Source of the DNA: Microbispora amethystogenes
GTDB lineage: Bacteria; Actinomycetota; Actinomycetes; Streptosporangiales; Streptosporangiaceae
Reading direction: 5' to 3'
Assembly: GCF_016863015.1 (NCBI RefSeq)
Contig: NZ_BOOB01000016.1
Location: 1-64,000 of the forward strand
DNA length: 64,000 bases
Shown: positions 13,409-28,012 of the stretch, one piece after another
Layout: each line of letters starts with the position of its first letter
Numbering within the stretch: the first letter of the stretch is position 1
Program-made: the position numbers and the translations under genes
The notes under the pieces: generated by a model
The model's database searches: none
Told to the model about the DNA's origin: nothing
What the model saw: only the letters and a program-made list of their open reading frames with translations

Positions 13409-16400
13409 CTAGCTGATCTGCCTGATCAGGTCCTCGGCGTCCCGGACGAGGACGGCGCTGACGGCCGGGTCGGAGACCTTCTTGCCCTCTCCGGCGAACT
13501 CGATGAACTTCTCCAGCCTGCCGACGGCCTTGTGGTTGCGGCCCTTGTCGACCACCTGCTCCTCGGCCTTGTCGAGCTCCTTGAGCAGCGACTCACTCTT
13601 GATCTTGCCCGCCGCCTTGAAGGTCGCCAGCAGCGCGCGCACGTCGGCGAACGAGGTGGTGACCTGGAAGGTGACGGTCTGCTCGGTGGTGAGGCCGGCC
13701 TTGTCGCGGGCGGTGACGGTCAGCGTGTTGTCGCCGAGCGGCAGCGTCCACAGCGGGATCGCCGCCCCGGACTCGACCGTACGGTCGCCGATCTTGGCGG
13801 TGACGCTCGCCACGCCGGAGGTCGCGTCGGTGGCCGAGGAGACCGGCGTGATCGAGGCCGAGTCGCCGTACGCCTTGCTCTCGACGCCGCTCACGGCCAC
13901 CGCGGGGGCGGTCTTGTCGATCTTCACCGTGACGGTGCCGATCTGCGAGACGTTGCCGCCGCTGTCGGTCGCGCGGTAGCGGACCTCGGTGGTGCCCTCG
14001 GTGCTGAGAGTCACGGCGTTGTTGGCGTTCAGCCAGGTGGTGCCGCCGTTGACCGAGTACTGCCGGCTCGCGACCGTGCCGTTGTCGGTCGCGGTGACCG
14101 TCAGCGTCACGTTGCCCTTGTACCAGCCGTTCTCACCGGTCGGCTGGGCCGGGTTGAGCGTGGCGGTCACGGTCGGCGGGGTCTTGTCGGCGACGCCGTC
14201 GCCCACGAAGGTGAACGCGTCCACGTCCACGCCGCCGGTGGAGGTGACGTAGAGCTTGCCGCTGCCCGAGGGGGCGTTCTTCAGGTCGGTGGTCACCGTC
14301 TGCCAGCCGGACCCGGCCGGGATGTCGACCGTCGCGAACGGGTTCGCGGTCGGCGAGTTCCAGCGCAGCGACAGGGTGCCCGCGCCGGTCGCCTGGGTCT
14401 TCACCGCGGTGATGCCGGCGAGGTTGACCGGGTCGTAGCCGATGTAGTCACCCGCGTCGAACGAGGTGACCTTGTTGAGGCCGGACGCCGTCGCGTCCGG
14501 GGTCTTGGTGACGCCCTTGCTGTCGTCCCCGTGCTCGGCCTGCATGAGCTTGGGGTTGAGGATCAGGGTCGCGTCGCCGGAGGCGCCGGGGATGCCGTTG
14601 GCGCCGTTGTCGCGGTAGCTGACCACGACCACGCCGAAGATGTTCTCGGTCACGCCGTGCTCGGGAGCGTCCGCGGGGGTCGCCCAGGTGACGGTGCAGC
14701 CCGTGCCGGTCGTGATCGGGTGGGCGTGGGTGTCGTGGCCGAGGCCGAAGGTCCACGCGACCCGGCTGCAGGTGGGGCTGTCGCCGTCCTCCTGGTCGGT
14801 CACCTTGACCTTGAACGGAACCGCGTTGCCCCAGTCGATGAAGCCGCCGTCGCCGGGGGTCTCGATGGAGACCTTGGGCGCGGTGTTGCCGACGGTGATC
14901 TCGACGGTGGCGAGGCCGAACCGGCCGCCCGCGTCGGTGACCCGCAGCCGGGCCGTGTACTGCCCGAGCTTGTCGTAGGTGTGGGTCGCCGTCACGCCCT
15001 TGGCGTCGAACGTGCCGTCGCCGTCGAAGTCCCACTCGTAGGTCAGGTCGCCGGCCTCGGAGTCGGAGGACTTGGCGCCGCTGAACGCGACGGTGAGCGG
15101 CGCGTTGGTGCCCGACGTCCGGTCCGTGGTGATCTTCGCCTGCGGGGCCTTGTTGCCGGGCGAGTAGTCGATGCGGTACAGGCCCGAGTCGGGGTTGGCG
15201 CGGAAGAAGCCGTCGCCGTACTCGAGGACGTACAGCGCCCCGTCGGGGCCGAACTCGAGGTCCATCGGGTTGTCCGTGATGGGCATCGCCATCTTGGTCA
15301 GCTCGGCGTTGGGCAGGAAGTGCTCGAGCTTGGTGACCGGCCCGTCGGAGCCGGACACCGTGAACGCCGCCAGGTAGTCCTGCGAGAACTCGCCGAAGAA
15401 GAACTTGTTGTCCCAGTACTCGGGGAACTTCGTCGCCGACTTGTTGTCCGCGTCGTAGTGGTAGACCGGGCCGCCCATCGGGGCCTGGCCGTTCTGCACC
15501 GGGTCGAACTCGGTCAGCCCGGACCACTCCGCCGGCTGGTCGCTCGCGCGGTCGCCGTAGTACATGTCGGCCGGGGTCGCCGGGGGCAGCTTCTCCAGGC
15601 CGGTGTTCCAGACGGAGTCGTTGGTCGCGCCGCCCGCGCAGTCGAAGAACTCACGCGGCTTGGAGTTCGCGTAGTCCCAGTGGTTGTAGTTGAAGTTGTT
15701 CCCGGTGCAGTACGGCCAGCCGCCGTTCATCGGCTTGTCCAGCGGGGTGACGTTCCACTCCACGAGACCCATCGGGCCGCGCTGGGGGTCGGCTGCGCCG
15801 GCGTCCGGGCCGTAGTCGCCCCAGGAGAGCGTGCCGGTCTTCCCGTCGACGTCGATGCGGAACGGGTTCCGCACGCCCATCACGAAGATCTCGGGCCGGG
15901 TCTTGGCCGTGCCCTTCGGGAACAGGTTGCCGTCGGGCACCGTGTAGGAGCCGTCCGCGCCCACCTTGATCCGCAGGATCTTGCCGCGCAGGTCGTTGGT
16001 GCTGCCCGCGCCGCGGCGGTCGTCGAAGCCGGGGTTCATGCCGGGGGCGTCGTTGTTGGGCGCCATGCCGTTGGCGCCGGGGGTGCTGGCCGGGGTGTTG
16101 TCACCGGTCGCCAGGTAGAGGTTGCCGTCGTCGTCCCAGTCGAAGTCGCCGGCGACGTGGCAGCACTGCCCGCGGTTGGTCTCGACCTTGATGATGACCT
16201 GCTCGGTGGACAGGTCGAGCTTGCCGCCGTCCCACTTGAACCGGGAGAGCTGGTTGTAGCCCTTCCACTGGTTCCAGTAGGACACGTCCGCGCCGGCGGG
16301 CAGGGAGTTGGGCGCCGATCCGGCCGGGGTCGTCTCCGGGTACGGAGCCGTCATCTTCCGGGGCGCGTAGTAGACGTAGACCCACTTGTTGTCCGCGAAG

Positions 16401-16717
16401 TCGGGGTCCAGGCCGATCGTCTGCAGGCCGTCCTCGGAGTTGTTGTAGACGTCGATCGTGTTGACGATCTTCGTCACTCCGGTGGCCGGGTCCGTCAGCC
16501 GGAGGTCGCCGTTGCGGGCGGTGTGCAGGACGCGGCTGTCGGGCAGGACCGCCATGTCGATCGGCTCGCCGACGTCCTTGGTGAGAGTGACCTTCTCGTA
16601 GTTCTGCCAGTTCAGAGCCGGCTCGTCGGCCGCCTGGGCGGGTGCGGCGGTGAACGCCGCGAACGGGAGAGTCAGTGCTGCGGCGAGACCACCGAGCAGC
16701 ATGCGAGTACGCTTCAA
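13409..16717 (-). CDS. Secreted multidomain PQQ-type sugar dehydrogenase-like protein (GSDH + PKD + carbohydrate-binding + Ig-like + C-terminal helical domain)
   Basis: About 1102 residues. A Sec signal (ending AQA near 29) is followed by a glucose/sorbosone-dehydrogenase-type beta-propeller at ~40-520 (PIDMAVLPDSRVLHTARNGDLRL, GLQTIGLDPDF, GVRNPFRIDVD, EFGPDGALYVLEYGDG). Next come a PKD domain (~530-610), a beta domain, a CBM6-like module (~720-840, FDAGDYIGYDPVNL), an OmpL47-like Ig repeat (GWYKGNVTLTVTATDNG), another Ig-like repeat, and a helical C-terminal ~80 residues resembling the FIMAH domain. The catalytic domain suggests oxidation of a sugar at the cell surface; cofactor and substrate are not proven. 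TTG 16717 is preferred (AGAGG upstream, basic n-region LKRTR). The next ATG would lose the basic residues. Confidence 0.8.
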   Translation of the reverse strand: MKRTRMLLGGLAAALTLPFAAFTAAPAQAADEPALNWQNYEKVTLTKDVGEPIDMAVLPDSRVLHTARNGDLRLTDPATGVTKIVNTIDVYNNSEDGLQTIGLDPDFADNKWVYVYYAPRKMTAPYPETTPAGSAPNSLPAGADVSYWNQWKGYNQLSRFKWDGGKLDLSTEQVIIKVETNRGQCCHVAGDFDWDDDGNLYLATGDNTPASTPGANGMAPNNDAPGMNPGFDDRRGAGSTNDLRGKILRIKVGADGSYTVPDGNLFPKGTAKTRPEIFVMGVRNPFRIDVDGKTGTLSWGDYGPDAGAADPQRGPMGLVEWNVTPLDKPMNGGWPYCTGNNFNYNHWDYANSKPREFFDCAGGATNDSVWNTGLEKLPPATPADMYYGDRASDQPAEWSGLTEFDPVQNGQAPMGGPVYHYDADNKSATKFPEYWDNKFFFGEFSQDYLAAFTVSGSDGPVTKLEHFLPNAELTKMAMPITDNPMDLEFGPDGALYVLEYGDGFFRANPDSGLYRIDYSPGNKAPQAKITTDRTSGTNAPLTVAFSGAKSSDSEAGDLTYEWDFDGDGTFDAKGVTATHTYDKLGQYTARLRVTDAGGRFGLATVEITVGNTAPKVSIETPGDGGFIDWGNAVPFKVKVTDQEDGDSPTCSRVAWTFGLGHDTHAHPITTGTGCTVTWATPADAPEHGVTENIFGVVVVSYRDNGANGIPGASGDATLILNPKLMQAEHGDDSKGVTKTPDATASGLNKVTSFDAGDYIGYDPVNLAGITAVKTQATGAGTLSLRWNSPTANPFATVDIPAGSGWQTVTTDLKNAPSGSGKLYVTSTGGVDVDAFTFVGDGVADKTPPTVTATLNPAQPTGENGWYKGNVTLTVTATDNGTVASRQYSVNGGTTWLNANNAVTLSTEGTTEVRYRATDSGGNVSQIGTVTVKIDKTAPAVAVSGVESKAYGDSASITPVSSATDATSGVASVTAKIGDRTVESGAAIPLWTLPLGDNTLTVTARDKAGLTTEQTVTFQVTTSFADVRALLATFKAAGKIKSESLLKELDKAEEQVVDKGRNHKAVGRLEKFIEFAGEGKKVSDPAVSAVLVRDAEDLIRQIS

Positions 16718-16831
16718 GTCTGCTGCGCCTCTTCTCTTCGTGGGGGGTGGCAAGGCAACGGCGGGCCGCCACGAGTGCCGCTGCGAACGAACACGTGGCG
16801 GTCCGCCGATTCCCGGCGGCTGTTGAGAGCG

Positions 16832-17962
16832 TCAGCCGCGGAGCTTGGAGATGTTGTTGTAGCTGAGCGCCGCGTACTGCAGCGACTGGCCCGGGTTGGC
16901 GGTGCCGCCGGGGGCGTTGTCCTGCTCGTACATCGGGTTGTGGTAACCCTTGGCGCCCATCTCGGAGAAGAAGGACTTGTAGTCGATGTCGCCGGTGCCG
17001 AACGGGACCATGTCGTAGCCGTTGGCGGTACCGGTGTTGATCTTGCCGTCCTTGGCGTGGAACAGCGGGAACCGCATCGTCTGGGCCTGCACGACGCCGA
17101 GGGGGTTGAAGATCTGCGTCTGCGCCGAGCCGTCGGGCGCGGTGTAGGTCTTGTGCTTGTACTGCGCGACGTAGGCCCAGAAGATGTCCATCTCCAGCCA
17201 CACGTGCTTCGGGTCGGTGTTCTGGAGGAAGTACTCCAGGCGGCGGATGCCGGAGGAGCGGGTGGGCCGGCCCTGCGCGTCGAGCGGGCCGCTGTCGAGC
17301 AGGAAGCTGTAGGCCACGTCGTGGTTGTGGGTGTACAGCTTGAGGCCCGCCTCGGAGGCGATCTGGCCGAGGGTGTTCCACTTCTCGGCGGCCACGTCCC
17401 AGTCGGCCTTGTAGGCGCTGCCCGTCGGGTCGCTGCCGGTGCCGACGTGCTTCATGCCGAGGATGTTGGCGATCTCCAGGTGGAGCTTGAAGCGGTCCAG
17501 GTCGGCCTGGTTCAGCGGCCAGGAGCCGGGGATGAAGCCGTGGTTGCCCTGGGCGACCAGGCCGCTGTCGTCCAGCCAGCCGCGCAGCAGGCGGGCGCCC
17601 TCGACGCTCTCCAGGCTCGCGCCGCCCTCGGCGTTCCGGTGCTGGGCGTAGCCGGCGAACTCCACCTGCGCGTAGCCGATCCGGCCGAGCTCCTGCAGGA
17701 CGGCCTTGAAGCCGGACGCGAGGTTGCTCGTCAGCGGGTCGCGGGTGATCGCGTCCCGGACCGTGTAGAGGATGATGCCGCGCCGCGGCGGCGGGACCAG
17801 GATGCCGTTGGCGGCACGCGCGGCCGACTTCATCGGGCCCGCCGCGCTGACCGCGGCGACGGCCGCCATGCCGGTCGTGGCCGCGAGGAACTGGCGCCTG
17901 TTGAGCCCCAGCTTGCGTCCGAGGTTGCCGGCTGTCTCCATCTCTTCTTCGTACGCACTCAT
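16832..17962 (-). CDS. Tat-exported sugar phosphate isomerase/epimerase-like TIM-barrel protein
   Basis: A 376-residue protein of the AP-endonuclease-2/xylose-isomerase-like TIM-barrel superfamily. The N-terminus carries a twin-arginine signal (NRRQFLAATTG, then a hydrophobic stretch to AARA near residue 50), so it should be exported folded. Barrel features are ILYTVRDAI, ELGRIGYAQVEFAGYA, AQGNHGFIPGSWP, LKLYTHNHDVAYSF, and the metal-site block WLEMDIFWAYVAQ, followed by FPLFHAKDGK and VPFGTGDIDYKSFF. Family members isomerise or epimerise sugars such as inosose; the exact reaction here is unknown. It is transcribed first, ~115 bases ahead of the multidomain dehydrogenase-like gene, so both probably form an extracytoplasmic sugar-oxidation unit. 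Confidence 0.85.
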   Translation of the reverse strand: MSAYEEEMETAGNLGRKLGLNRRQFLAATTGMAAVAAVSAAGPMKSAARAANGILVPPPRRGIILYTVRDAITRDPLTSNLASGFKAVLQELGRIGYAQVEFAGYAQHRNAEGGASLESVEGARLLRGWLDDSGLVAQGNHGFIPGSWPLNQADLDRFKLHLEIANILGMKHVGTGSDPTGSAYKADWDVAAEKWNTLGQIASEAGLKLYTHNHDVAYSFLLDSGPLDAQGRPTRSSGIRRLEYFLQNTDPKHVWLEMDIFWAYVAQYKHKTYTAPDGSAQTQIFNPLGVVQAQTMRFPLFHAKDGKINTGTANGYDMVPFGTGDIDYKSFFSEMGAKGYHNPMYEQDNAPGGTANPGQSLQYAALSYNNISKLRG

Positions 17963-18358
17963 CTGTCTTACCTACTCCATCTGCGTGGAAGCACCTGGAC
18001 CCCTGGACCTGTGCGTCGCTCCTGGTGGAGCGGATCGGGAGGTCAGGTGGGTGCGGAGCACTTGACGAGCAAGTTACGCCTCTTTTACCTACCGTGGAAG
18101 AAGTTTCGTCATGATCTTTTGAACTTTCTTCCATCACAGGACAAAGTCTGTCAGGGAGTAGTCGGATGACCAGGGATTTCGGGTGGGACGGGAGGGGTTG
18201 CCGGGGCGGCAGATGATCTTCCGCACACTGCTGCATCGCAGGTAGATGAACTTTGTGTAGCAAGCCGGAAACTTTTGCTTGTGCGTGGCAAAAGGTCCCA
18301 CTTAGTATCCGAATGTTCCGGGGTCATCCTTCATACCCGAGTTGACGGGAGAGTTACA
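17963..18358. promoter_or_regulatory. Divergent regulatory region between the sugar operon and the ebo-like cluster
   Basis: This AT-richer 396-base stretch contrasts with its surroundings. An inverted repeat TGGAAGAA (18095-18102) / TTCTTCCA (18126-18133) contains GAAGTTTC (18100-18107) and GAACTTTC (18121-18128). GAACTTT recurs at 18248 and GAAACTTTT at 18268-18276. A possible promoter for the plus-strand cluster is TTGTGC (18279-18284), an 18-base spacer, then TAGTAT (18303-18308). GGGAGAG precedes the GTG start at 18359. The motif copies resemble those upstream of the ROK regulator gene at 26 kb. Confidence 0.5.
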
Positions 18359-19546
18359 GTGCCCATCGGTGTCTGGCTGGTCGGCGCCCGGGGGTCCGTC
18401 GCGACCACGGCAGTGGTCGGAGCGGCGGCGGTACGGGCGGGAGCCGCCCTGCCCACGGGTTGCGTCATCGAGGCCGCCGGCTTCCCCGGCGACTTCCCGC
18501 CCCTGGCCGACCTGGTGTTCGGCGGCCACGACGTGGTCGGTACGCCGCTGCGCAAGAGGGCCGAACTGCTCGCCCAGGCGGGCGTGCTTCCTCCCGCCCT
18601 GACGACTCTGCTCTCGGCGGACATCGACGCCGCCGAGGCCGAGATCCGGCACGGCTACGTCCCCGGCGTGGAGACCCAGGCGGAGGCCGCGCGCCGCCTC
18701 GCCGGCGACATCGCGGACTTCCGCGAGCGCCACGGCCTCTCCCGCGTGGTCGTCGTGGACGTGTCCTCCACCGAGCCGCCGGCCGAGGTGCCGTACGCCC
18801 GGCTCACCGACCTGGAGGAGGCCCTGGAGTCCGGGGCGGACGCGCTGCCGCCCAGCTCCCTCTACGCCTACGCGGCCTTCTCGGCCGGCTGCGGCTACGT
18901 GGCGTTCACGCCCTCCGCCGGCCCGACGCCGCCCGCCCTGGACGAGCTGGCGCGGCGCAACGGCGCTCCGTACACGGGACGCGACGGCAAGACCGGGGAG
19001 ACGCTGATCAAGAGCGCGCTCGCACCGATGTTCGCCGGCCGCGCGCTGCGGGTCCGCTCGTGGTCGGGGCTCAACCTGCTCGGCGGCGGCGACGGCGCCA
19101 CGCTGGCCGACCCCGCGGCCCGGGCGAGCAAGTCGGCGAGCAAGGCGCGCGCCGTCCCCGCGATCGTGGGCGAGGACGTCGAGGGCCTGACGCACATCGA
19201 CTACGTCGCCGACCTGGGGGAGTGGAAGACCGCCTGGGACCACATCACGTTCGAGGGGTTCCTCGGCGTGCGGATGACCATGCAGTTCACCTGGCAGGGG
19301 TGCGACTCGACGCTTGCCGCGCCGCTCGTCCTCGACCTCGTCCGCCTCGTCGCGCGGGCGCAGGAGGCCGGGCACAGCGGCGTGCTGCCCGAGCTCGGCT
19401 ACTTCTTCAAGGACCCGCTGGGCGGCGCCGGGCACGACCTGCCCGCCCAGTACGCCCGGCTGGTCGAGTTCGCCCGCTCGCTCGCTGGTGAGACCGTGAC
19501 GGACGAGGCCCTGAAGGACGAGACACCGACGGGCGACCGGCCGTGA
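18359..19546 (+). CDS. Inositol-3-phosphate synthase family protein, first gene of ebo-like cluster
   Basis: The 395-residue protein belongs to the myo-inositol-1-phosphate synthase family, NAD+-dependent enzymes that cyclise glucose-6-phosphate. An N-terminal NAD motif GARGSVAT (residues ~8-15) is followed by family blocks: SGLNLLGGGDGATL (counterpart of the HLGNNDG region), KSASKARAV, HIDYVADLGEWKTAWDHI, GFLGVRMTMQF and STLAAPLVLDLVRL. It is divergent from housekeeping bacterial inositol synthases, so its substrate may be another sugar phosphate. GTG 18359 has GGGAGAG 8 bases upstream. The stop overlaps the start of the next gene (GTGA). In known ebo clusters the sugar-phosphate cyclase role is filled by EboD, a dehydroquinate-synthase-like protein, which is absent here. 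Confidence 0.85.
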   Translation: MPIGVWLVGARGSVATTAVVGAAAVRAGAALPTGCVIEAAGFPGDFPPLADLVFGGHDVVGTPLRKRAELLAQAGVLPPALTTLLSADIDAAEAEIRHGYVPGVETQAEAARRLAGDIADFRERHGLSRVVVVDVSSTEPPAEVPYARLTDLEEALESGADALPPSSLYAYAAFSAGCGYVAFTPSAGPTPPALDELARRNGAPYTGRDGKTGETLIKSALAPMFAGRALRVRSWSGLNLLGGGDGATLADPAARASKSASKARAVPAIVGEDVEGLTHIDYVADLGEWKTAWDHITFEGFLGVRMTMQFTWQGCDSTLAAPLVLDLVRLVARAQEAGHSGVLPELGYFFKDPLGGAGHDLPAQYARLVEFARSLAGETVTDEALKDETPTGDRP

Positions 19547-20412
19547 GGGCCTGGCTGGAGCTGGTCCGCGCGCCCGCCGCGCTCTCCGTCCCCGGCGACA
19601 CGCTCGCGGGGGCGGCCGCGGCGGGGCGGGCCGCCCGGCCCGGCCTCGCCGCCGCGTCGGTGCTGCTCTACTGGGCCGGCATGGCGCTGAACGACTGGTC
19701 CGACCGCGACCTCGACGCGGTGGAGCGGCCGGAGCGGCCCATCCCCTCCGGCCGGATCAGCCCGGCGGGGGCGCTCGGGGTCGCCGCCGCGCTGACCGGC
19801 GCCGGGGTGGCCGCCGCCGGGATCTTCGGTGGACGGCGCGGGCTGGCGATCGCGGGCCTGCTCGCGGGCTCCGTGTGGGCCTACGACCTGAAGCTCAAGC
19901 ACACGCCGGCGGGCCCGGCCGCGATGGCGGCCTGCCGCGTGTTCGACGTCCTGCTCGGCGCGGGCCCGGACACCCGAGCCGCGGCCCCCATGGCCCTGGC
20001 CGTCGGCGCGCACACGTACGGGATCACCCTGCTGGGCACCGCCGAGGTCGACGGCGCCGACCCTTCGACGATCGTCGGCGCGATGGCCGCCACCGGCGTG
20101 ACCGCCGCGCTGGCCGCCGTCGCCTGCCTCGGTGGCAAGAGCAGTGGCGAGAGCGGTGGCGGGGCCGCGGGACGCCTCAGCGCCGCCGGTCTGATCGCCG
20201 GGTATCTCGCCACGGCCGGGCGCGCCCAGGTGGCGCTCTGCACCGACCCCGACCCCCAGCACGTGCGGCAGGCCGTGCGGATGAGCATCCTCGGCCTGAT
20301 CCCGCTGCAGGCGGCGTCCGTCGCCGGGCGGGGCAGGCTCGCCCAGGCGGCCGCGCTGCTCGCCGGGCTGCCCGCCGGCCGGTGGCTGTCGGCGAAGGTG
20401 GCCACGTCGTGA
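19543..20412 (+). CDS. eboC: UbiA-like prenyltransferase, EboC type
   Basis: A 289-residue integral membrane protein of the UbiA family with about eight predicted helices. The first Asp-rich motif is NDWSDRDLDAVERPERPIPSG starting at residue 49, and the second is YDLKLKHTP at about 113. UbiA enzymes transfer a prenyl chain from prenyl diphosphate to an acceptor, using Mg2+ held by these motifs. The second motif has fewer acidic residues than classical UbiA, as in other EboC-type proteins as I recall them. Its start overlaps the preceding stop (GTGA) and its stop overlaps the next start (GTGA), so translation is coupled. A prenylated cyclitol product is an attractive guess, but the acceptor is unknown. 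Confidence 0.85.
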   Translation: MRAWLELVRAPAALSVPGDTLAGAAAAGRAARPGLAAASVLLYWAGMALNDWSDRDLDAVERPERPIPSGRISPAGALGVAAALTGAGVAAAGIFGGRRGLAIAGLLAGSVWAYDLKLKHTPAGPAAMAACRVFDVLLGAGPDTRAAAPMALAVGAHTYGITLLGTAEVDGADPSTIVGAMAATGVTAALAAVACLGGKSSGESGGGAAGRLSAAGLIAGYLATAGRAQVALCTDPDPQHVRQAVRMSILGLIPLQAASVAGRGRLAQAAALLAGLPAGRWLSAKVATS

Positions 20413-21275
20413 GCATCCCCCTGAACAGGGTCCCCGTGAACTGGGCGTACTGCACCAACGGCTTCCGCGACCACCCGCTCGACGAGGCGCTGCGCGTCCT
20501 CGCCGGCCTCGGCTACACCGGCGCGGCGATCACCCTCGACCACGGGCACCTCACCCCGGAGGCGACGCCCGCCGAGGTGGACCGGATCGCGGCGCTGGCG
20601 CGGCGGCTCGGCCTCGCCCTGGCGGTCGAGACCGGGGGCAGGTACACGCTCGACTCCCGGCGCAAGCACTTCCCGACGCTGCTGCACGCCGAGGGGGAGG
20701 CGCGGGCGGACCTGATCCGCCGCGCCATGCGGATCGCGGCCGACCTCGGCGCCCCGGTGGTGCACTTCTGGAGCGGCATCCGGCCGCCGGAGGTGCCCGA
20801 GGCGGAGGCCTGGGACCGGCTCGCCCGGCACTGCGAGCGCCTGCTCGCCGAGGCGGACCGGGTGGGCGTCACGCTCGGGTTCGAGCCGGAGCCGGGGATG
20901 CTCGTGCAGGACCTCGCCGGGTACGAACGGCTGCGCGGCCTGCTCGGCGGGCACCCCCGCTTCGGCCTCACCCTCGACATCGGGCACTGCCGCTGCCTGG
21001 AGCCGTACGACGTGCCCGAGTGCGTCGAGCGGGCGAAGCCCTATCTGGTCCACGTGCAGATCGAGGACATGCGGCGGGGCGTGCACGAACACCTCGAGTT
21101 CGGCGAGGGCGAGATCGACTTCCCGCCCGCGCTCGCCGCCCTCGACGGCTTCGGCGGCCTCGTGGCCGTCGAGCTCGCCCGGCACAGCCACGCGGCGCCC
21201 GATGTGGCGAGAAGGTCGATCGAATTCCTGAGGAGGGCACATGACCTGGCTGGCGCGGGCCGTAGCCGACGTTGA
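20409..21275 (+). CDS. TIM-barrel sugar isomerase/epimerase-like protein in ebo-like cluster
   Basis: A 288-residue protein of the xylose-isomerase-like TIM-barrel superfamily. Metal and substrate sites are suggested by TLDHGHLTPEATP, ALAVETGGRY, PVVHFWSGI, LGFEPEPGML, TLDIGHCRCLEP, YLVHVQIEDMRRG and LVAVELARHSH; these conserved Glu, Asp and His residues are typical of divalent-metal isomerases and endonuclease-IV folds. Near its start it has VNWAYCTNGF, and the later EboE-like protein of this cluster has VHLAYCTNVH at the same place, so the two are probably distant paralogues. GTG 20409 overlaps the eboC stop. The 3' end overlaps eboA by 35 bases. Confidence 0.82.
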   Translation: MSIPLNRVPVNWAYCTNGFRDHPLDEALRVLAGLGYTGAAITLDHGHLTPEATPAEVDRIAALARRLGLALAVETGGRYTLDSRRKHFPTLLHAEGEARADLIRRAMRIAADLGAPVVHFWSGIRPPEVPEAEAWDRLARHCERLLAEADRVGVTLGFEPEPGMLVQDLAGYERLRGLLGGHPRFGLTLDIGHCRCLEPYDVPECVERAKPYLVHVQIEDMRRGVHEHLEFGEGEIDFPPALAALDGFGGLVAVELARHSHAAPDVARRSIEFLRRAHDLAGAGRSRR

Positions 21276-21744
21276 GCGCGACCCGGAGACCGTCCACGCG
21301 CTGTTCCCGAGGGCCGCGCGGGACGGCGGCCCCGGCGCCCGCGCCGAACTGCTGAGAGCGCTCGCGAAGGCCACGCCGGAGCCGGCGGAGGCCGTGACGA
21401 GGCTCTACTGGCAGGGCGACGCCGCCGAACGGCTGGACATCCTGCGGACGCTCCCGGACCTCGACCTCGGCCCGGCCGCCCTGCCGCTCGTGCACGACGC
21501 CCTGCGCACCAACGACACCCGGCTGGTCGCCGCCGCGCTCGGCCCGTACGGCTCGGCCTGGCTGGACGACCACGCCTTCCGGCAGGGTGTGCTCAAGTGC
21601 GTCTTCATGTCCGTTCCGCTCGCGTCGGTCGAGGGCCTCGACCGGCGCTTCGACGAGGAGTTGCGGCGCATGCTCGCGGACTTCGCCGCCGAGCGCCGCG
21701 CGGCCGGACGTCCCGTTCCCCCCGACGTTCTCGAGAGGCTCTGA
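21241..21744 (+). CDS. eboA: EboA domain-containing protein
   Basis: A 167-residue protein with the EboA domain: alpha-helical, no membrane span, no catalytic motif visible. Typical parts are ALLRALAKATPEPAEAVTRLYWQGDAAERLDILRTL and LVHDALRTNDTRLVAAALGPYGSAWLDDHAFRQGVLKCVF, which look like short helical repeats. The biochemical role of EboA is not established; genes of this set are needed for moving a scytonemin precursor to the periplasm in Nostoc. The start ATG at 21241 lies inside the end of the preceding gene and has GAGGAGGGC just upstream. Confidence 0.85.
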   Translation: MTWLARAVADVERDPETVHALFPRAARDGGPGARAELLRALAKATPEPAEAVTRLYWQGDAAERLDILRTLPDLDLGPAALPLVHDALRTNDTRLVAAALGPYGSAWLDDHAFRQGVLKCVFMSVPLASVEGLDRRFDEELRRMLADFAAERRAAGRPVPPDVLERL

Positions 21745-21749
21745 TTCTG

Positions 21750-22592
21750 ATGCGGATCTTCGATCCCCACGTCCACATGACGTCCCGCACGACCGACGAC
21801 TACGAGCGCATGTACGCCGCCGGGGTCCGGGCGATCGTGGAGCCGGCCTTCTGGCTCGGCCAGCCGCGCACCAACGTCGGAAGCTTCCTCGACTACTTCG
21901 ACGCGCTGCTGGGCTGGGAGCCCTACCGGGCCGCACAGTACGGCATCCGCCACCACTGCACGCTCGCGCTCAACCCCAAGGAGGCGAACGACCCGCGCTG
22001 CCTCGGGGTGCTGGACGAGCTGTCCCGCTACCTGCTGAAGGACTCGGTGGTCGCGGTCGGCGAGACGGGCTACGACTCGATGACGCAGGAGGAGGAGCGC
22101 GTCTTCGAGGCCCAGCTCGCGCTGGCCGAGGAGCACGGCCTGCCGGTGCTCGTGCACACGCCGCACCGCGACAAGGCCGCGGGGACCCGCCGCACGCTCG
22201 ACGTGGTCAAGGGGATCGACCCGGGGAAGGTGCTCGTCGACCACCTCAACGAGCTGACCGTCGGCATGGTCCACGAGGCCGGCTGCTGGATGGGCTTCTC
22301 GATCTATCCCGACACCAAGATGGACCCGGACCGCATGGTCGCGATCCTCAAGGAGTACGGCACCGAGCGGATGATCGTGAACTCGGCCGCCGACTGGGGG
22401 CGCAGCGACGTGCTGAAGACCCGCGAGGTCGGCGAGGCCATGCTGGCCGCCGGGTTCACCGACGACGACGTGGACCAGGTGCTGTGGCGCAACCCGGTGG
22501 CCTTCTACGGCCAGAGCGGGCGCCTGGTCCTGGACGACGTCGAGTCCGGCGGCGACTACGAGGGCAACACGATCCTGCGCGGGACGCGCTGA
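21750..22592 (+). CDS. eboB: TatD-family metal-dependent hydrolase, EboB type
   Basis: A 280-residue amidohydrolase-superfamily protein. It opens with the metal motif DPHVHM at residues 5-10, and continues with HHCTLALNPKEAND, VAVGETGYDS (bridging Glu), LPVLVHTPHRDK, VLVDHLNELT (His ligand) and IVNSAADWGRSD (Asp ligand). This is a full set of TatD-like ligands, so it should be active. The substrate is unknown. The ATG at 21750 begins 5 bases after the eboA stop; longer in-frame starts run back into eboA and are unlikely. TatD-like proteins are constant members of ebo clusters. Confidence 0.88.
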   Translation: MRIFDPHVHMTSRTTDDYERMYAAGVRAIVEPAFWLGQPRTNVGSFLDYFDALLGWEPYRAAQYGIRHHCTLALNPKEANDPRCLGVLDELSRYLLKDSVVAVGETGYDSMTQEEERVFEAQLALAEEHGLPVLVHTPHRDKAAGTRRTLDVVKGIDPGKVLVDHLNELTVGMVHEAGCWMGFSIYPDTKMDPDRMVAILKEYGTERMIVNSAADWGRSDVLKTREVGEAMLAAGFTDDDVDQVLWRNPVAFYGQSGRLVLDDVESGGDYEGNTILRGTR

Positions 22593-22594
22593 CC

Positions 22595-23725
22595 ATGCGC
22601 CTGCGTCATCCCGCCGGTTCCGTCGTCCACCTGGCCTACTGCACCAACGTCCACCCCGCGGAGGACCTCGCGGGGATCCACGAGCAGCTCACCGGGGTCG
22701 CCGCCCGGGTGCGCGCGCTGACCGGCGCCGGGCGGCTCGGGCTCGGCCTGTGGCTGTCGCGGCGCGCCGCCCGGGCGCTGCGCGACGACCCCGCCGAGCT
22801 CGCCCGCCTCCGCGCCCGGTTGGACGAGCAGGGGCTGGAGGTCGTCACCCTCAACGGCTTCCCGTACGGCGGCTTCCACGACGAGGTCGTGAAGCTCCGG
22901 GTCTACCGGCCCGACTGGGCGGAGCCGGAACGGCTCGCCTACACCCTCGACCTGGCCGAGATCCTCACCGCGCTGCTGCCGGACGACGTGACCGAGGGCT
23001 CGATCTCGACGCTGCCCCTCGCCTGGCGCACCGGCTGGACGCCGGCCAAGGCCGCGGCCGTCAACGCCAACCTGGCCGTGCTCGCCCGGGGCCTGCGGGC
23101 CCTGGCGGAGCGCACCGGCAAGACGATCCGGGTCGGCTTCGAGCCCGAGCCGGGGTGCATCGTGGAGACCACCCCGCAGGCGGTGGCGCTGCTCGGCGGC
23201 GCCGACCTCGACTATCTCGGCGTCTGCCTGGACGCCTGCCATCTGGCCGTCGGCCTGGAGGAGGCCGCCGACGCGGCGGCCCTGGGGCTGCCGGTCGTCA
23301 AGCTCCAGGTCTCGTCGGCGGTGGAGGCGCCGCCGGGCGGCCAGCAGGCGCTGGCGGCGTACGTGGAGGAGCGCTACCTCCACCAGACGCGGTGCGCCGC
23401 GGGCTACACCGACGACCTGCCCGAGGCGCTGGCCGGGGGGCTTCCCACGGACCTGCCGTGGCGGACGCACTTCCACATGCCCCTGCACGCCGCGCCCCCG
23501 GCGCCGCTCACCACCACCTCCTCCTATCTGGAGGACCTGCTGCGGCTGCTGGTGACGCCCGCCTCCCCGCACGGGGACCTCGCCGCCCCCCTCACCCGGC
23601 ACCTCGAGGTGGAGACCTACACCTGGAGCGTGCTGCCCGGACCGGTGGACATCGCCGAGGGCATCGCCGCCGAGCTGGACTGGACCCGGCGGCGGCTCGC
23701 CGCCCTCGGACTTAAGGAGATCTGA
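22595..23725 (+). CDS. eboE: Metabolite traffic protein EboE-like, TIM barrel
   Basis: A 376-residue protein of the EboE family, again a xylose-isomerase-like TIM barrel. Features are VHLAYCTNVHP near the start, LEVVTLNGFPYGGFHDE, DVTEGSISTLPLAWRTGW, IRVGFEPEPGCIVE, YLGVCLDACHLAVGLEE, VVKLQVSSAVEAP, RTHFHMPLHA and LEVETYTWSVLPG. Conserved Glu, Asp and His residues at barrel strand ends predict a metal site. The start is 2 bases after the eboB stop and its TGA shares one base with the next ATG. The name implies metabolite traffic, but the fold is that of an isomerase or lyase, and the reaction is not known. Confidence 0.87.
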   Translation: MRLRHPAGSVVHLAYCTNVHPAEDLAGIHEQLTGVAARVRALTGAGRLGLGLWLSRRAARALRDDPAELARLRARLDEQGLEVVTLNGFPYGGFHDEVVKLRVYRPDWAEPERLAYTLDLAEILTALLPDDVTEGSISTLPLAWRTGWTPAKAAAVNANLAVLARGLRALAERTGKTIRVGFEPEPGCIVETTPQAVALLGGADLDYLGVCLDACHLAVGLEEAADAAALGLPVVKLQVSSAVEAPPGGQQALAAYVEERYLHQTRCAAGYTDDLPEALAGGLPTDLPWRTHFHMPLHAAPPAPLTTTSSYLEDLLRLLVTPASPHGDLAAPLTRHLEVETYTWSVLPGPVDIAEGIAAELDWTRRRLAALGLKEI

Positions 23726-25050
23726 TGGCGCCCGTCGTCGTCGTCAACGTCGTCGGCCTGACCCCGCGCCTGCTCGCGCACATGCCGAACGTCGCCAAGG
23801 TGGGGGCCGCGGCCACCCTGAAGCCCGTGCTGCCCGCGGTGACCTGCACGATGCAGGCCACCCTGCTCACCGGGGCCATGCCGCGCGACCACGGCATCGT
23901 CGCGAACGGCTGGTACTTCCGCGACCTCGGAGAGGTCTTCCTGTGGCGGCAGCACAACCGGCTGATCCAGAGCGAGCAGCTGTGGGACGCGGTGCCCGGG
24001 ATGCGCACGGCCAACGTCTGCTGGTGGTACGCCATGGGCGGCTCCAGCGACTTCATCGTCACCCCCCGGCCCGTCTACTTCGCGGACGGCAAGAAGGACC
24101 AGGACTGCTACACCCGTCCGCCGTCGCTGCACGACGACCTCGTGGCCGAGCTCGGGGAGTTCCCGCTCTTCTCCTACTGGGGGGCGAACGCCAACATCGC
24201 GTCGTCCAAGTGGATCATCGCGGCGGCCCGCCGCATCCTCACCCGGGAACGGCCGGACCTGCTGATGGTCTACGTGCCGCACCTCGATTACGACCTGCAG
24301 CGGTTCGGCCCGGACGCGCCGCAGGCCGTCGCGGCGGCCCGTGAGGTCGACGCCGCCCTCGCGCCCCTGCTGGCCGAGGACGCCACCTTCGTCGTGGTGT
24401 CGGAGTACGGGATCACCAACGCGTCCCGGCCGGTGGACGTGAACCGCGCGCTGCGCCGGGCCGGGCTGCTGGAGGTCTACACCCAGGCCGGGATGGAGTA
24501 TCTCGACCCCTGGGCCTCGCGGGCCTTCGCCGTGTCCGACCACCAGATCGCCCACCTCTACGTGCGCGACCCCGCCGACCTGCCGCGCGTCCGCGACATC
24601 GTGGCCGAGCTGCCCGGCGTGGACGAGGTCCTCGGCCAGGAGGGCAAGGCGAGGTACGGCCTCGACCACGACCGGGCCGGCGACCTCGTCGCCGTGGCCG
24701 ACCCGGACGCCTGGTTCACGTACTACTACTGGCTGTCCGACGACCGCGCGCCGGACTTCGCGAAGCTCGTGGAGATCCACCGTAAGCCCGGATACGACCC
24801 GGCCGAGCTGTTCATGGACCCGGACGACCCGTTCGTGAAGCTCCGCGCCGGCGCGGCGCTGGCCCGCAAGAAGCTGGGCTTCCGCTACATGATGTCGGTG
24901 GTGCCCCTCGACCCGGCGCCGGTGCGGGGCAGCCACGGCCGCCTGCCCGACACCGCGGCCGACGGGCCGGTCCTGCTGGGCCCCTTCGAGGGCGAGTCCT
25001 ACGCCGCGACGGAGTTCAAGGGCCTGCTGACGCAGCTGCTCAAGGGCTGA
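23725..25050 (+). CDS. Alkaline phosphatase/nucleotide pyrophosphatase-like enzyme, last gene of ebo-like cluster
   Basis: A 441-residue protein of the alkaline phosphatase superfamily, type I phosphodiesterase branch. It begins VVVVNVVGLTPRLL. The likely nucleophile Thr lies in TCTMQATLLTG near residue 40, in the place of the usual TNP..T motif, then GIVANGWYFRD. Metal ligands are suggested by YVPHLDYDLQRFG, VVVSEYGITN and DHQIAHLY. No signal peptide is visible, so it should be cytoplasmic. It may remove a phosphate or diphosphate, or cleave a phosphodiester, in the pathway product. Related proteins accompany ebo genes in other genomes. The gene starts at the overlapping TGATG and is followed by a terminator. 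Confidence 0.85.
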   Translation: MAPVVVVNVVGLTPRLLAHMPNVAKVGAAATLKPVLPAVTCTMQATLLTGAMPRDHGIVANGWYFRDLGEVFLWRQHNRLIQSEQLWDAVPGMRTANVCWWYAMGGSSDFIVTPRPVYFADGKKDQDCYTRPPSLHDDLVAELGEFPLFSYWGANANIASSKWIIAAARRILTRERPDLLMVYVPHLDYDLQRFGPDAPQAVAAAREVDAALAPLLAEDATFVVVSEYGITNASRPVDVNRALRRAGLLEVYTQAGMEYLDPWASRAFAVSDHQIAHLYVRDPADLPRVRDIVAELPGVDEVLGQEGKARYGLDHDRAGDLVAVADPDAWFTYYYWLSDDRAPDFAKLVEIHRKPGYDPAELFMDPDDPFVKLRAGAALARKKLGFRYMMSVVPLDPAPVRGSHGRLPDTAADGPVLLGPFEGESYAATEFKGLLTQLLKG

Positions 25051-25066
25051 GAAACGCCTGCGGTAT

Positions 25067-25096
25067 GGCCGCCGTCCCGGAACCGGGGCGGCGGCC
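25067..25096 (+). terminator. Strong terminator ending the ebo-like operon
   Basis: GGCCGCCGTCCCGG (25067-25080) faces CCGGGGCGGCGGCC (25083-25096), a 14-base-pair stem with one G-T type position and a 2-base loop, starting 16 bases after the stop. No U-tract follows. It separates the cluster from the convergent ROK gene. Confidence 0.85.
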
Positions 25097-25155
25097 TTCG
25101 CCGTCGGGAGGCGCTGCTGGGAGGCTCAGTCGGGGGTGGCTCAGTCGGGGGTGGC

Positions 25156-26355
25156 TCAGTCGGCCGTGAACAGGTGGTCGCTGATCAGGCGGGCCGCCCC
25201 GACGATGCCGGCGGTCCCGCCGAGCTCCGACAAGACGATGGGCAGGTTGCCGGTCGCCAGCGGCAGGGAGCGCTGGTAGACGACGCTGCGGACCTCCGCG
25301 AGCAGCGCGTGGCCGAGACCCGCCACCCCGCCTCCGATGATCACCAGGCCGGGGTTGAAGAAGCTCACCAGTGAGGCGAGCACGAGCCCCACGTGCCGGC
25401 CGCCCTCGCGGACCATCCGCACGGCGGCGGCGTCGCCCGAGCCGGCCGCCGCGCCCACGTCCTCGGCGGTGAGCGCGCCCTCGTGCGCGAGCCGGTCGGC
25501 GAGGAAGGCGGACTCGCCGGAGCGGGCGGCGGCCAGGGCGTCGCGCGCCAGCGCCGCGCCGCCGAAGTAGGCCTCGAGGCAGCCGGTGTTGCCGCAGGTG
25601 CACAGGGGACCGTTCTCGTCCACCCGGATGTGGCCGATGTCGCCCGCGCTGCCGGTCACCCCGCGGTAGATCTCGCCGTCGACCACGATGCCGCAGCCGA
25701 TGCCCGTACCGATCTTGACGAGCAGGAAGTCGTCGACGGACCTCGCGAGACCGGCGTGCAGCTCGCCGAGCGCCATTATGTTCACGTCGTTGTCCACCAG
25801 CACCGGACAGCCGAACTCCCGGGTCAGCGACTCCCGTACGGGGAAGCGGTCCCAGCCGGGCATGATCGGGGGCGAGACCGGAGTCCGGTCGCGGAAGCTG
25901 ACCGGGCCGGGCACGCCGAGGCCGATTCCGTGGATCACCCCGTGCATGTCGGCCGTCTCGCCGGTCAGCAGCTTGCCGACGAGCTCCATCGTCTGGTCGA
26001 GCACCGCCTCGGGGCCCTCCCGCACGTCGGCCGGCTTCGACAGGTGGCCGAGCACCTCCAGCTCGCCGTTGGTCACGCCCACGTCGATGGAGGTGGCGCC
26101 GATGTCGACGCCGACGAAGCGCAGATCCGAGGCGAGGCGGACGATGCCCGAGCGCCGCCCTCCCCGGGACGCCGCGAGGCCTCCGGACTCCACGAGGCCC
26201 AGCTGGGTGAGCCGGTCGAGTTCGAGGGCGAGCTTCGACGCGGACAGACGGACCACCTCGCCGAGCTCGGCACGCGAACGCGCGCCGTCCTGACGCAGGA
26301 GGCGCAGGAGCCGGGCCTGGTGCGGATTCTCGGGGCGAACCGTCATTCGCTTCAC
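25156..26355 (-). CDS. ROK family transcriptional regulator
   Basis: A 399-residue protein: an N-terminal winged helix (about 12-65, LLRLLRQDGARSRAELGEVVRLSASKL) joined to a ROK sugar-kinase fold. The kinase part has the phosphate loop VDIGATSIDVG, GLGVPGPV, LVDNDVN with the catalytic Asp, GTGIGCGIVVDGEIYRGVTGSAGDIGHI, and the zinc motif CTCGNTGC near residue 252. Such proteins are usually sugar-responsive repressors of neighbouring catabolic or biosynthetic genes; those with a complete active site may retain kinase activity. It converges with the ebo-like operon, and its own upstream region shares a GAAACTTTT motif with that operon's promoter. The start is GTG 26355, or possibly ATG 26346. 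Confidence 0.9.
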   Translation of the reverse strand: MKRMTVRPENPHQARLLRLLRQDGARSRAELGEVVRLSASKLALELDRLTQLGLVESGGLAASRGGRRSGIVRLASDLRFVGVDIGATSIDVGVTNGELEVLGHLSKPADVREGPEAVLDQTMELVGKLLTGETADMHGVIHGIGLGVPGPVSFRDRTPVSPPIMPGWDRFPVRESLTREFGCPVLVDNDVNIMALGELHAGLARSVDDFLLVKIGTGIGCGIVVDGEIYRGVTGSAGDIGHIRVDENGPLCTCGNTGCLEAYFGGAALARDALAAARSGESAFLADRLAHEGALTAEDVGAAAGSGDAAAVRMVREGGRHVGLVLASLVSFFNPGLVIIGGGVAGLGHALLAEVRSVVYQRSLPLATGNLPIVLSELGGTAGIVGAARLISDHLFTAD

Positions 26356-26372
26356 GCCGCTCTTCGGGGTCG

Positions 26373-26505
26373 GGGAAACTTCGGGCCGGGAAACTTCGGT
26401 ATCGAGGAAATCGGTTACATGCGGTAACTGACTCTACTTCTGCTCTGGCCCTCTCAACTTTATTACAGGACTGCCTGACTTTTAGCCTCGTATGTGAAAA
26501 GTTTC
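26373..26505. promoter_or_regulatory. Repeated GAAACTT motifs upstream of the ROK gene
   Basis: GGGAAACTTCGG occurs twice as a direct repeat (26373-26384 and 26388-26399) within 45 bases of the ROK start. A third site, GAAAAGTTTC (26496-26505), is a palindrome of GAAA and TTTC arms. Read on the minus strand the last site is GAAACTTTTC, which matches the GAAACTTTT at 18268-18276. The stretch 26400-26520 is clearly richer in A+T than the genes around it. Autoregulation by the ROK protein is likely, but unproven. Confidence 0.5.
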
Positions 26506-26575
26506 TATTGAATCTTGCCCAGGTGGCGGCCATGCCGGTGCGGGCTCCGGGCGTACGGACAGGTAGCTTTTCTCC

Positions 26576-28012
26576 ATGGGCAGGACGATGGGAGAGACGA
26601 CGGGTCGTCATGTGGTCGTCGTGGGCGCCGGCATCGCGGGCCTGGCCGCGGCGTTGCACCTGAACCGGGCCGAGGCGGGGCTGCGGATCACCGTGCTGGA
26701 GGCCGCGCCGAGGATCGGCGGCAAGCTGCACTCCTCGTCCGTCGCCGGAGTGGAGGTCGACGCCGGCGCCGAGTCGATGCTGGCGCGGCGGCCCGAGGGC
26801 GTGGAAATGGCCCGGCTCGCCGGTCTCGGCGACGACCTGGCCGCCCCGGGCACGACCCGGGCGGCGGTCCTGTCGCGGGGGTCCCTGCGCCCGCTGCCCA
26901 GGCAGCAGGTCATGGGCGTGCCCGCCGACGTGGTCGCGCTCGCCCGCTCGGGCATCCTGTCGCCCGCCGGGCTCGCCCGCGTGCCGCTCGACCAGTTCCT
27001 GCCGCCCACGCTCGTGACCGGCGACGTCTCCGTCGCGGCGTACGTGCGCGCCCGGATGGGCGGCGAGGTCGTCGAGCGGCTGGTCGAGCCGCTGCTCGGC
27101 GGCGTCTACGCCGGGCGGGCCGAGTCGCTGTCGCTCGACGCGACCATGCCGCGCGTCGCCGCCGCCGCCCGCACAGAGCGGTCCCTGCTGCAGGCCGCGA
27201 GGAGCATGGTCGCCGAGGCCCCGGCGGACGCCGGGCCGGTCTTCACGACGATCAGGAACGGCATGGGCGCGTTGCCGGCCGCCGTGGCCAAGGAGTCCGG
27301 CGCGCAGATCCGGACCGGCGTCACCGTACGCGACCTCCTCCGCACGCCGGACGGCTGGCGGCTGGTCACCGGCCCCACCCGCGACGAGGAGACGATCGAC
27401 GCCGACGCGGTCGTGCTGGCGCTCCCGGCGCGGCCCGCCTCCCGGCTGCTGCGGCGCGAGGTGCCGGGGGCGGCGGCGGAACTGGCCGCGATCGAGTACG
27501 CCGGGATGGCGATCGTCACCCTCGCCTACCCTCTGACGGCCTTCCCCGAGCCGCCGGCGGGGAGCGGTTACCTGGTCCCGCCGGTGGAGGGGCGGCCGGT
27601 CAAGGCGACGACGTTCAGCAGTGTCAAGTGGCCCCACCTCGCCGAGGCCGGCCCGGACATGATGATCGTCCGGTGTTCGCTCGGCCGGCTGGGGGAGGAG
27701 GCCGTGCTCCAGCGCGACGACGCCGACCTGACGGCCCTGGCGGTGAACGAGATGGCCGAGGTGACGGGCGTGCGCGGGCTGCCGGTCGACACCCGGGTGA
27801 CCCGCTGGGGCGGCGCGCTCCCGCAGTACGAGGTCGGCCACCTCGACCGGGTGGCCCGGGTGCGGGCCGCGATCGCCGGGCAGCCCGGCCTGGCCGTGTG
27901 CGGCGCGGCGTACGAGGGCGTCGGCGTCCCGGCCTGCGTCGCCACCGCGCGCACGGCCGCCCGGCTCGTGCTCGACCATCTGCGGGCGGAGCGGGCCGCC
28001 CCGAGGGCCTGA
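26576..28012 (+). CDS. hemY: Coproporphyrinogen/protoporphyrinogen III oxidase
   Basis: A 478-residue FAD enzyme. The dinucleotide motif [16 protein letters not shown] starts near residue 14. RIGGKLHSS, the conserved AGAESMLAR and [15 protein letters not shown] follow, and the FAD-binding end [14 protein letters not shown] is at the C-terminus. In actinobacteria this enzyme oxidises coproporphyrinogen III to coproporphyrin III, after which iron is inserted and HemQ decarboxylates coproheme. The directly following hemQ supports that pathway. Two in-frame ATGs (26576 and 26588) are possible; the first is used here without a strong ribosome site to decide. The gene name in databases varies (hemY, hemG, cgoX). 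Confidence 0.93.

Follow-up and report, generated by a model that had tools for sequence, protein, structure and literature searches.

A second form of the ebo cluster in which a MIPS-family cyclase and a TIM-barrel protein probably take the place of EboD

The ebo cluster spans many phyla, two domains of life and algal plastids. In its described form (eboABCDEF; PMC5133447, PMC6282210) it is required by Nostoc for the export of a scytonemin precursor and by Pseudomonas to avoid being eaten by nematodes, and an export role via a lipid carrier has been proposed (PMC6282210), as has an isoprenoid-cyclitol product (PMC5133447). EboC-like enzymes have been assayed on quinolines (PMC9235831), while neither a native reaction of any ebo enzyme nor a published description of a myo-inositol-1-phosphate synthase (MIPS) in ebo clusters was found in the open-licence literature, and the word "inositol" is absent from the main text of PMC5133447. 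Here, we analyzed a stretch of 64,000 nucleotides from Microbispora amethystogenes (contig NZ_BOOB01000016.1, positions 1 to 64,000; hereafter the window), in which a seven-gene run at 18359-25050 shares with the ebo operon EboA, EboB, EboE, EboF and a UbiA-superfamily protein, and differs from it in lacking EboD, in carrying a MIPS-family cyclase and an extra TIM barrel, and in a UbiA protein that NCBIfam places under SCO3242 and not under EboC. From the order of the genes, the conservation of catalytic residues, the exclusion between MIPS and EboD, the co-occurrence of MIPS and TIM barrel, the kinship of the cluster MIPS and the switching on the EboB tree, we propose, with a probability of roughly 65%, that the run represents a second form of the ebo cluster, in which the ring is closed by an unrelated NAD-dependent MIPS-family cyclase together with a TIM-barrel epimerase instead of EboD.

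The source genome comprises 8.1 Mb over 167 contigs, and the run lies on contig 16, with all genes in the same direction and in the order MIPS, UbiA, TIM barrel, EboA, EboB, EboE, EboF (Table 1). The initial annotation had read it as a seven-gene Ebo-like cluster headed by a MIPS homologue and devoid of an eboD gene, and families, gene order and genome scan agree with it: EboA, EboB, EboE and EboF, the combination by which an ebo operon is recognized, are clustered in the window, and EboD is absent from both cluster and genome, given a single match to PF01761 (3-dehydroquinate synthase) genome-wide, which its context behind an aroC-like frame identifies as a probable AroB. The junctions consist of overlaps of 4, 4, 35 and 1 bases and gaps of 5 and 2 bases, so that the earlier description (overlaps or gaps of 2-5 bases) holds for most of them but not for the 35-base overlap between the TIM-barrel and EboA genes. 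It had also called the UbiA protein EboC-type; the protein reaches 122 bits against the EboC family NF035940 (cut-off 250) and exceeds the cut-off of the SCO3242 family (NF045897); its motifs are NDWSDRDLD at 50, YDLKLK at 114 and RVFD at 132. In Streptomyces coelicolor, SCO3243 is annotated as myo-inositol phosphate synthase, and SCO3242 and SCO3243 are listed as genes of the calcium-dependent antibiotic (CDA) cluster (PMC3610822); no reaction for this pair was found in the open-licence literature.

The cluster MIPS, in which both the NAD_binding_5 and the Inos-1-P_synth domains are present, was considered as the housekeeping Ino1 and rejected as such. The second PF01658 protein of the genome is the housekeeping Ino1 (693 bits against the mycothiol Ino1 model TIGR03450, cut-off 638), and the window MIPS scores 35 bits with this model, far under the cut-off; the cluster MIPS is therefore an additional enzyme and not the housekeeping one. 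Its closest solved chain is the Ino1 of Archaeoglobus fulgidus (1u1i, E 2.6e-59), and with the A. fulgidus-type synthases (1u1i, 3qvs, 3qvw, 3qvx, 3qw2), for which glucose-6-phosphate to inositol-1-phosphate would be the predicted conversion, it has the catalytic and several clade signature residues in common, the difference being that it belongs to an ebo cluster and that the genome has a housekeeping Ino1 as well. Nine active-site residues, whose single roles in the A. fulgidus enzyme we in part presume, were compared (D209, K211, N239, D245, K258, K262, K290, D316 and K351, counted along the alignment and aligned with A. fulgidus D225, K227, N255, D261, K274, K278, K306, D332 and K367), and each is kept in 46/46 cluster-type and 10/10 other MIPS rows. 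The role of the catalytic lysines is described in PMC11348189. The MIPS ortholog Ari2, a five-membered-cyclitol-phosphate synthase of another pathway (PMC11188666), matches the window MIPS with only 56 bits (PDB 6k96, identified by molecule name).

To see how widely this arrangement holds, regions around EboE (NF035939), present in 14 of 296 genomes of a phylum-wide sample and in 105 of 393 of a class-wide one, were collected from Actinobacteria (108 regions; the window was not counted and 13 weak EboE-like places were left out), and their content was determined by tblastn at 1e-4 with the window proteins, EboD, AroB and other reference proteins. MIPS was present in 92/108 regions, and an EboD- or AroB-like gene in none of the 108 at this threshold; in 79 EboE genomes, 3-dehydroquinate-synthase matches on the same contig lie at least 60 kb from EboE. 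The order MIPS-UbiA-TIM-EboA-EboB-EboE-EboF recurs in 86 of the 92 MIPS-bearing regions (13 family codes, 26 genus codes), and the arrangement in the window is therefore not due to chance. EboB is held by 99 regions, 92 of them with MIPS. The genomes of the seven others (L021, L033, L153, L161, L193, L198, L199) all carry a MIPS as well, which scores 306-529 bits with the cluster profile. In the case of L021 and L153, the gene is found in another cluster of the same genome (L022, L166), and the genomes of L161, L198 and L199 have a cluster-clade MIPS at a contig end outside the region, adjacent to UbiA in two of the three. L193 (genome G315, 328 bits) and L033 (genome G279, 306 bits) are accompanied by a MIPS of another lineage, whose neighbours in the tree are MIPS from plasmids of Methylobacterium, Roseomonas and Hymenobacter. 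Altogether, 97/99 EboB-bearing regions go with the cluster-type MIPS and the other two with the second lineage, perhaps through independent recruitment. Even there, a TIM-barrel gene of the cluster kind lies 28 bp (G279) or about 4 kb (G315) from the MIPS, both genes standing together and apart from the remaining ebo genes (L256 and L255, respectively).

Two other candidates from these regions were discarded. A Gfo/Idh gene before UbiA in L193 was dropped as a cyclase substitute, given that G315 has MIPS and TIM barrel on another contig, and an inositol monophosphatase was rejected as a regular partner, being confined to L021 and L153, the MIPS-less second copies. In these two regions (13912-16808 in L021), a carotenoid-ketolase-like oxidoreductase gene and the inositol-monophosphatase-family gene stand upstream of UbiA. 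EboE or an EboE-like gene occurs alone in nine regions (L177, L207, L211, L212, L215, L225, L226, L227, L228), some of them on short contigs. Of eight genomes with nothing but such a gene (six above the cut-off, two weak), none has a cluster-type MIPS and all matches are Ino1-like (60-67 bits); EboE may also function independently of ebo clusters.

The TIM barrel accompanies the MIPS closely. Among the 50 genomes described below, its profile reaches 285-370 bits in exactly the 12 that bear MIPS, the best score in the other 38 being 120 bits (chance of the coincidence 8e-12 under an independence of genomes that does not hold), and in the 5/92 MIPS-bearing actinobacterial regions without a TIM-barrel gene, the genome has one outside the region. 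EboD is therefore displaced not by a single gene but by a pair, the MIPS and a ketose-3-epimerase-like TIM barrel. An AlphaFold2 model of the window protein (pLDDT 92) found its best Foldseek match in the L-xylulose-5-phosphate 3-epimerase UlaE (3cqj, TM 0.80), which would give its superfamily but not its reaction. With the UlaE/D-tagatose 3-epimerase family (3cqj, 4pfh) it shares the fold at 17-18% identity; E159, D190 and E255 are invariant in 13 rows, whereas the fourth position of the E-D-H-E metal site, usually a ligand His, is Gln or His.

Non-actinobacterial clusters were reached by a tblastn search of plasmid records. In haloarchaea (Halocatena, Natronococcus, Halobaculum), the clusters read TatD(EboB)-TIM-UbiA-TIM with MIPS and the phosphodiesterase alongside, and Haladaptatus has the same gene set with no MIPS in the stretch. 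The 1-Mb plasmid of Gemmatirosa carries EboG-like, EboB, EboE and EboF genes with UbiA, MIPS and TIM barrel and no EboD. The name EboG-like was assigned by position, on the model of the Deinococcus cluster. A second known core type has EboG where the first has EboA (PMC5133447), and the pair thus also occurs in the EboG-type core. A 3-dehydroquinate-synthase-like gene is found instead in Azospirillum, Ketogulonicigenium, Gloeothece, Deinococcus, Aureibacter, Mycetohabitans and Salipiger. Seven plasmid records (Gemmatirosa, four haloarchaea, two Streptomyces) lack EboD, and seven of the EboD type have it. Thus, the MIPS form recurs in haloarchaea and Gemmatimonadota, and in Planctomycetes its genes are unlinked; a replacement special to Actinobacteria was rejected, as haloarchaeal, Gemmatimonadota and other-phyla genomes have it.

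Exclusion between the two cyclases was examined in an EboB scan of GTDB contigs, from which the best 80 of 587 confirmed candidates were taken by likeness to the Gemmatirosa EboB. The sample represents EboG-type clusters and leaves aside cyanobacteria and most of the Bacteroidota and Proteobacteria, whose assignment to the EboD type comes from PMC5133447 and the seven plasmid records. EboD was linked in 30 of the 80 loci and MIPS in none. The genomes of those 30 contain no MIPS above 263 bits; four of them have one at 226-263 bits, falling with the lipid-type MIPS of Bacteroidota outside the cluster clade. The other 50 genomes hold EboD in 32 cases, cluster-type MIPS in 12 and both in one, with clear score gaps (EboD at least 285 bits, next 210; cluster-type MIPS at least 424, next 222). 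The resulting table for the 80 genomes (both 1, MIPS only 11, EboD only 61, neither 7) gives a Fisher p of 3.3e-8 with kinship ignored. The non-homologous replacement of EboD suggested in the initial annotation is thus well supported: the survey of actinobacterial clusters for mutual exclusion that it had called for returned MIPS widely and EboD nowhere, and neither of the results it named as contrary, frequent co-occurrence of both cyclases or loss of the MIPS catalytic residues, was seen. Its picture of one cyclase simply standing in for another needs amending, in that the TIM barrel goes with the MIPS.

Phylogenies show the MIPS as kin across phyla. A single clade of 47 rows (support 100/97) unites the cluster MIPS of Actinobacteria, haloarchaea, Planctomycetes and Gemmatimonadota, together with one haloarchaeal MIPS that does not stand in an ebo context. 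In a tree that also holds distant Ino1 on a very long branch, the actinobacterial, haloarchaeal and planctomycete sequences stay together (89/95) and those of Gemmatimonadota branch apart. The cyclase type switches on the trees of the other genes: the MIPS/EboD label needs at least seven changes on a wider EboB tree (130 rows) and three on the UbiA tree, where the UbiA proteins of the Gemmatirosa MIPS cluster and of an EboD cluster from a Gemmatimonadetes metagenome-assembled genome (G663) are sisters (100/100). Strict co-inheritance of UbiA with its cyclase was rejected because of these three changes and this sister pair, and given the mixing between types, one UbiA type may serve either cyclase.

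Several observations weigh against the proposed second form, or narrow it. Ten of 11 planctomycete MIPS genes have no recognized ebo-type neighbour and the remaining one (L230) has only a TIM-barrel gene, so that co-occurrence is what ties them to an ebo role. In Halomarina, a MIPS from the same kin group sits among glycosyltransferases and not ebo genes. The Gemmatimonadetes genome G663 has both cyclases, EboD with UbiA, EboE and EboF on one contig and MIPS with the TIM barrel on another (L240-L241), which may reflect a transitional state or a mixed bin, and 7/80 genomes have neither. With correction for the tree, the exclusion is not significant among the 80 genomes in a sign test on independent pairs, as supported branches of the EboB tree yield four independent pairs (EboD opposite to MIPS in 2.5 and in the same direction in 0.2, on average). 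No substrate or product of an ebo cyclase was found reported in the open-licence literature. Finally, a MIPS outside the clade accompanies two actinobacterial clusters (those of G315 and G279), in keeping with the step, though not with a single origin; the displacement of EboD needs no single MIPS origin, so its odds are unaffected.

Since EboD is displaced by the pair, we infer a cyclitol or cyclitol phosphate as the required output of the ring-forming step, and the two forms would make the same or an interchangeable product. Going by the enzyme families, the MIPS would oxidize a sugar phosphate (glucose-6-phosphate by family), close the ring by an internal aldol step and re-reduce it to a cyclitol phosphate, while the TIM barrel would epimerize either the keto-sugar that serves as substrate or a keto-cyclitol formed from the product, possibly as an adjustment needed to fit the new cyclase chemistry. 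A hydrolase (EboF or another) would then take off the phosphate, UbiA would prenylate the cyclitol with a polyprenyl chain, and EboB and EboE would complete the compound, the substrates and the order of these steps being likewise conjectural. The repeated swap of the cyclase would pin down a cyclitol or cyclitol phosphate as the class of molecule with which the pathway apparently cannot dispense, and MIPS, unlike EboD, has well-known chemistry and an assay, for which the TIM barrel can now be named as partner.

The most serious competitor, doubtful in our view yet ahead of the others, is that the two types are separate pathways, the MIPS type making an inositol (C6) lipid and the EboD type a C7-cyclitol lipid, with exclusion arising between product variants that share tailoring genes. 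MIPS normally converts glucose-6-phosphate to a C6 cyclitol phosphate, and by family its product keeps the phosphate that EboD-like cyclases lose, a disparity that favours different products, as do the active site and several clade signature residues that the window MIPS shares with A. fulgidus Ino1, and the argument that EboD uses sedoheptulose-7-phosphate (PMC5133447). However, EboB trees mix both types, and the sister UbiA proteins of Gemmatirosa and G663 would be odd if their acceptors differed. Because Ari2 accepts a ketose phosphate (fructose-6-phosphate; PMC11188666), a C7 route is possible for the cluster MIPS too. A bolder version of the replacement, in which EboD and the MIPS with its ketose epimerase converge from sedoheptulose-7-phosphate on the same branched C7 cyclitol, prenylated by one UbiA type to a universal lipid carrier for metabolite export in bacteria and haloarchaea, is unlikely.

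More improbable still is that MIPS and TIM barrel serve one function and UbiA, EboA, EboB, EboE and EboF another (e.g., export), joined by gene order mainly in Actinobacteria. The unlinked planctomycete genes would fit this, as would G315 and G279, where the pair stands together away from the other ebo genes, but in four groups from two domains of life the pair goes with EboB and against EboD. Least probable of all, we give very little credence to a MIPS that merely hitch-hikes, supplying inositol (phosphate) to general metabolism or neighbouring biosynthetic clusters. In favour of it, MIPS enzymes are common, aromatic-polyketide-type genes adjoin one cluster, and SCO3243 is counted with the CDA cluster (PMC3610822); against this, the genome already has its own Ino1, the eight genomes with a lone EboE possess Ino1-like matches yet no cluster-type MIPS, and MIPS co-occurs with the TIM barrel even when unlinked and excludes EboD.

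Table 1. Genes of the ebo-type run and its upstream flank in the window
Feature	Position	Strand	Length	Family evidence and remarks
Flank: glucose/sorbosone-dehydrogenase domain + PKD + CBM6 protein	13409..16753	-		PF07995 102 bits; PKD; CBM_6
Flank: TIM barrel, weak Tat-signal match	16832..17962	-		PF01261 71 bits; TAT_signal 17 bits, under its cut-off
Cluster-type MIPS (inositol-1-phosphate-synthase family cyclase)	18359..19546	+	395 aa	GTG start preceded by GGAGAG; PF07994 160 bits; PF01658 110 bits
UbiA-superfamily prenyltransferase, SCO3242 type	19543..20412	+	289 aa	PF01040; NF045897 344 bits (cut-off 260)
TIM barrel, ketose-3-epimerase-like	20409..21275	+	288 aa	AP_endonuc_2 PF01261 126 bits
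EboA-domain protein	21241..21744	+	167 aa	NF035938 159 bits (cut-off 50)
EboB, TatD-type metal-dependent hydrolase	21750..22592	+	280 aa	PF01026 55 bits
EboE, xylose-isomerase-like TIM barrel	22595..23725	+	376 aa	NF035939 386 bits (cut-off 250)
EboF, type I phosphodiesterase / nucleotide pyrophosphatase family	23725..25050	+	441 aa	PF01663 193 bits

The closest reference proteins of the window EboB and EboE are those of Azospirillum (56% identity) and Deinococcus (38%), respectively, and EboF is 57% identical to its Deinococcus and 53% to its Azospirillum counterpart, its solved relatives being phosphonoacetate hydrolase. The EboA-domain gene has a Shine-Dalgarno-like GAGGAGG within the TIM-barrel gene, and elsewhere in Actinobacteria EboA can be fused to a xylose-isomerase-like domain (PMC5133447). 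A scan of 17950-25200 for sigma-70-type promoters and terminators gave no match, which carries little weight for an actinobacterium. Upstream, the flanking TIM-barrel gene runs divergent from the seven-gene run; its relatives occur in 37/92 MIPS-bearing actinobacterial regions and those of the dehydrogenase/PKD/CBM6 gene in 60/92, while relatives of these genes (13409-17962) were found in 0/80 EboG-type loci, many of which are short and sequence-distant. The encoded proteins may act on an exported product. The haloarchaeal cluster L038 is also followed by a TIM barrel and a pyrroloquinoline-quinone (PQQ) sugar dehydrogenase. The stretch downstream of the run (25156-28012) holds a protoporphyrinogen-oxidase-like gene and, on the minus strand, a ROK-family gene.

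The source genome encodes a second, shorter EboE-like protein (L034, contig 77, 551-1441), similar ones recurring in the family, and its 11.6-kb contig holds no ebo gene besides. In some clusters, a ScyD/ScyE-family protein adjoins the MIPS (L044:3221-4423, L051:2963-4162, L148, L173, L174); the family is named after scytonemin-cluster proteins and recalls the cyanobacterial ebo-scytonemin link. A whole MIPS-type cluster (L054) and a lone eboE (L053) both lie beside aromatic-polyketide-type genes, and the neighbours of L054 also include amidase, glutamine-synthetase-like and adenylosuccinate-lyase genes, a set that we take to be characteristic of kinamycin-type clusters.

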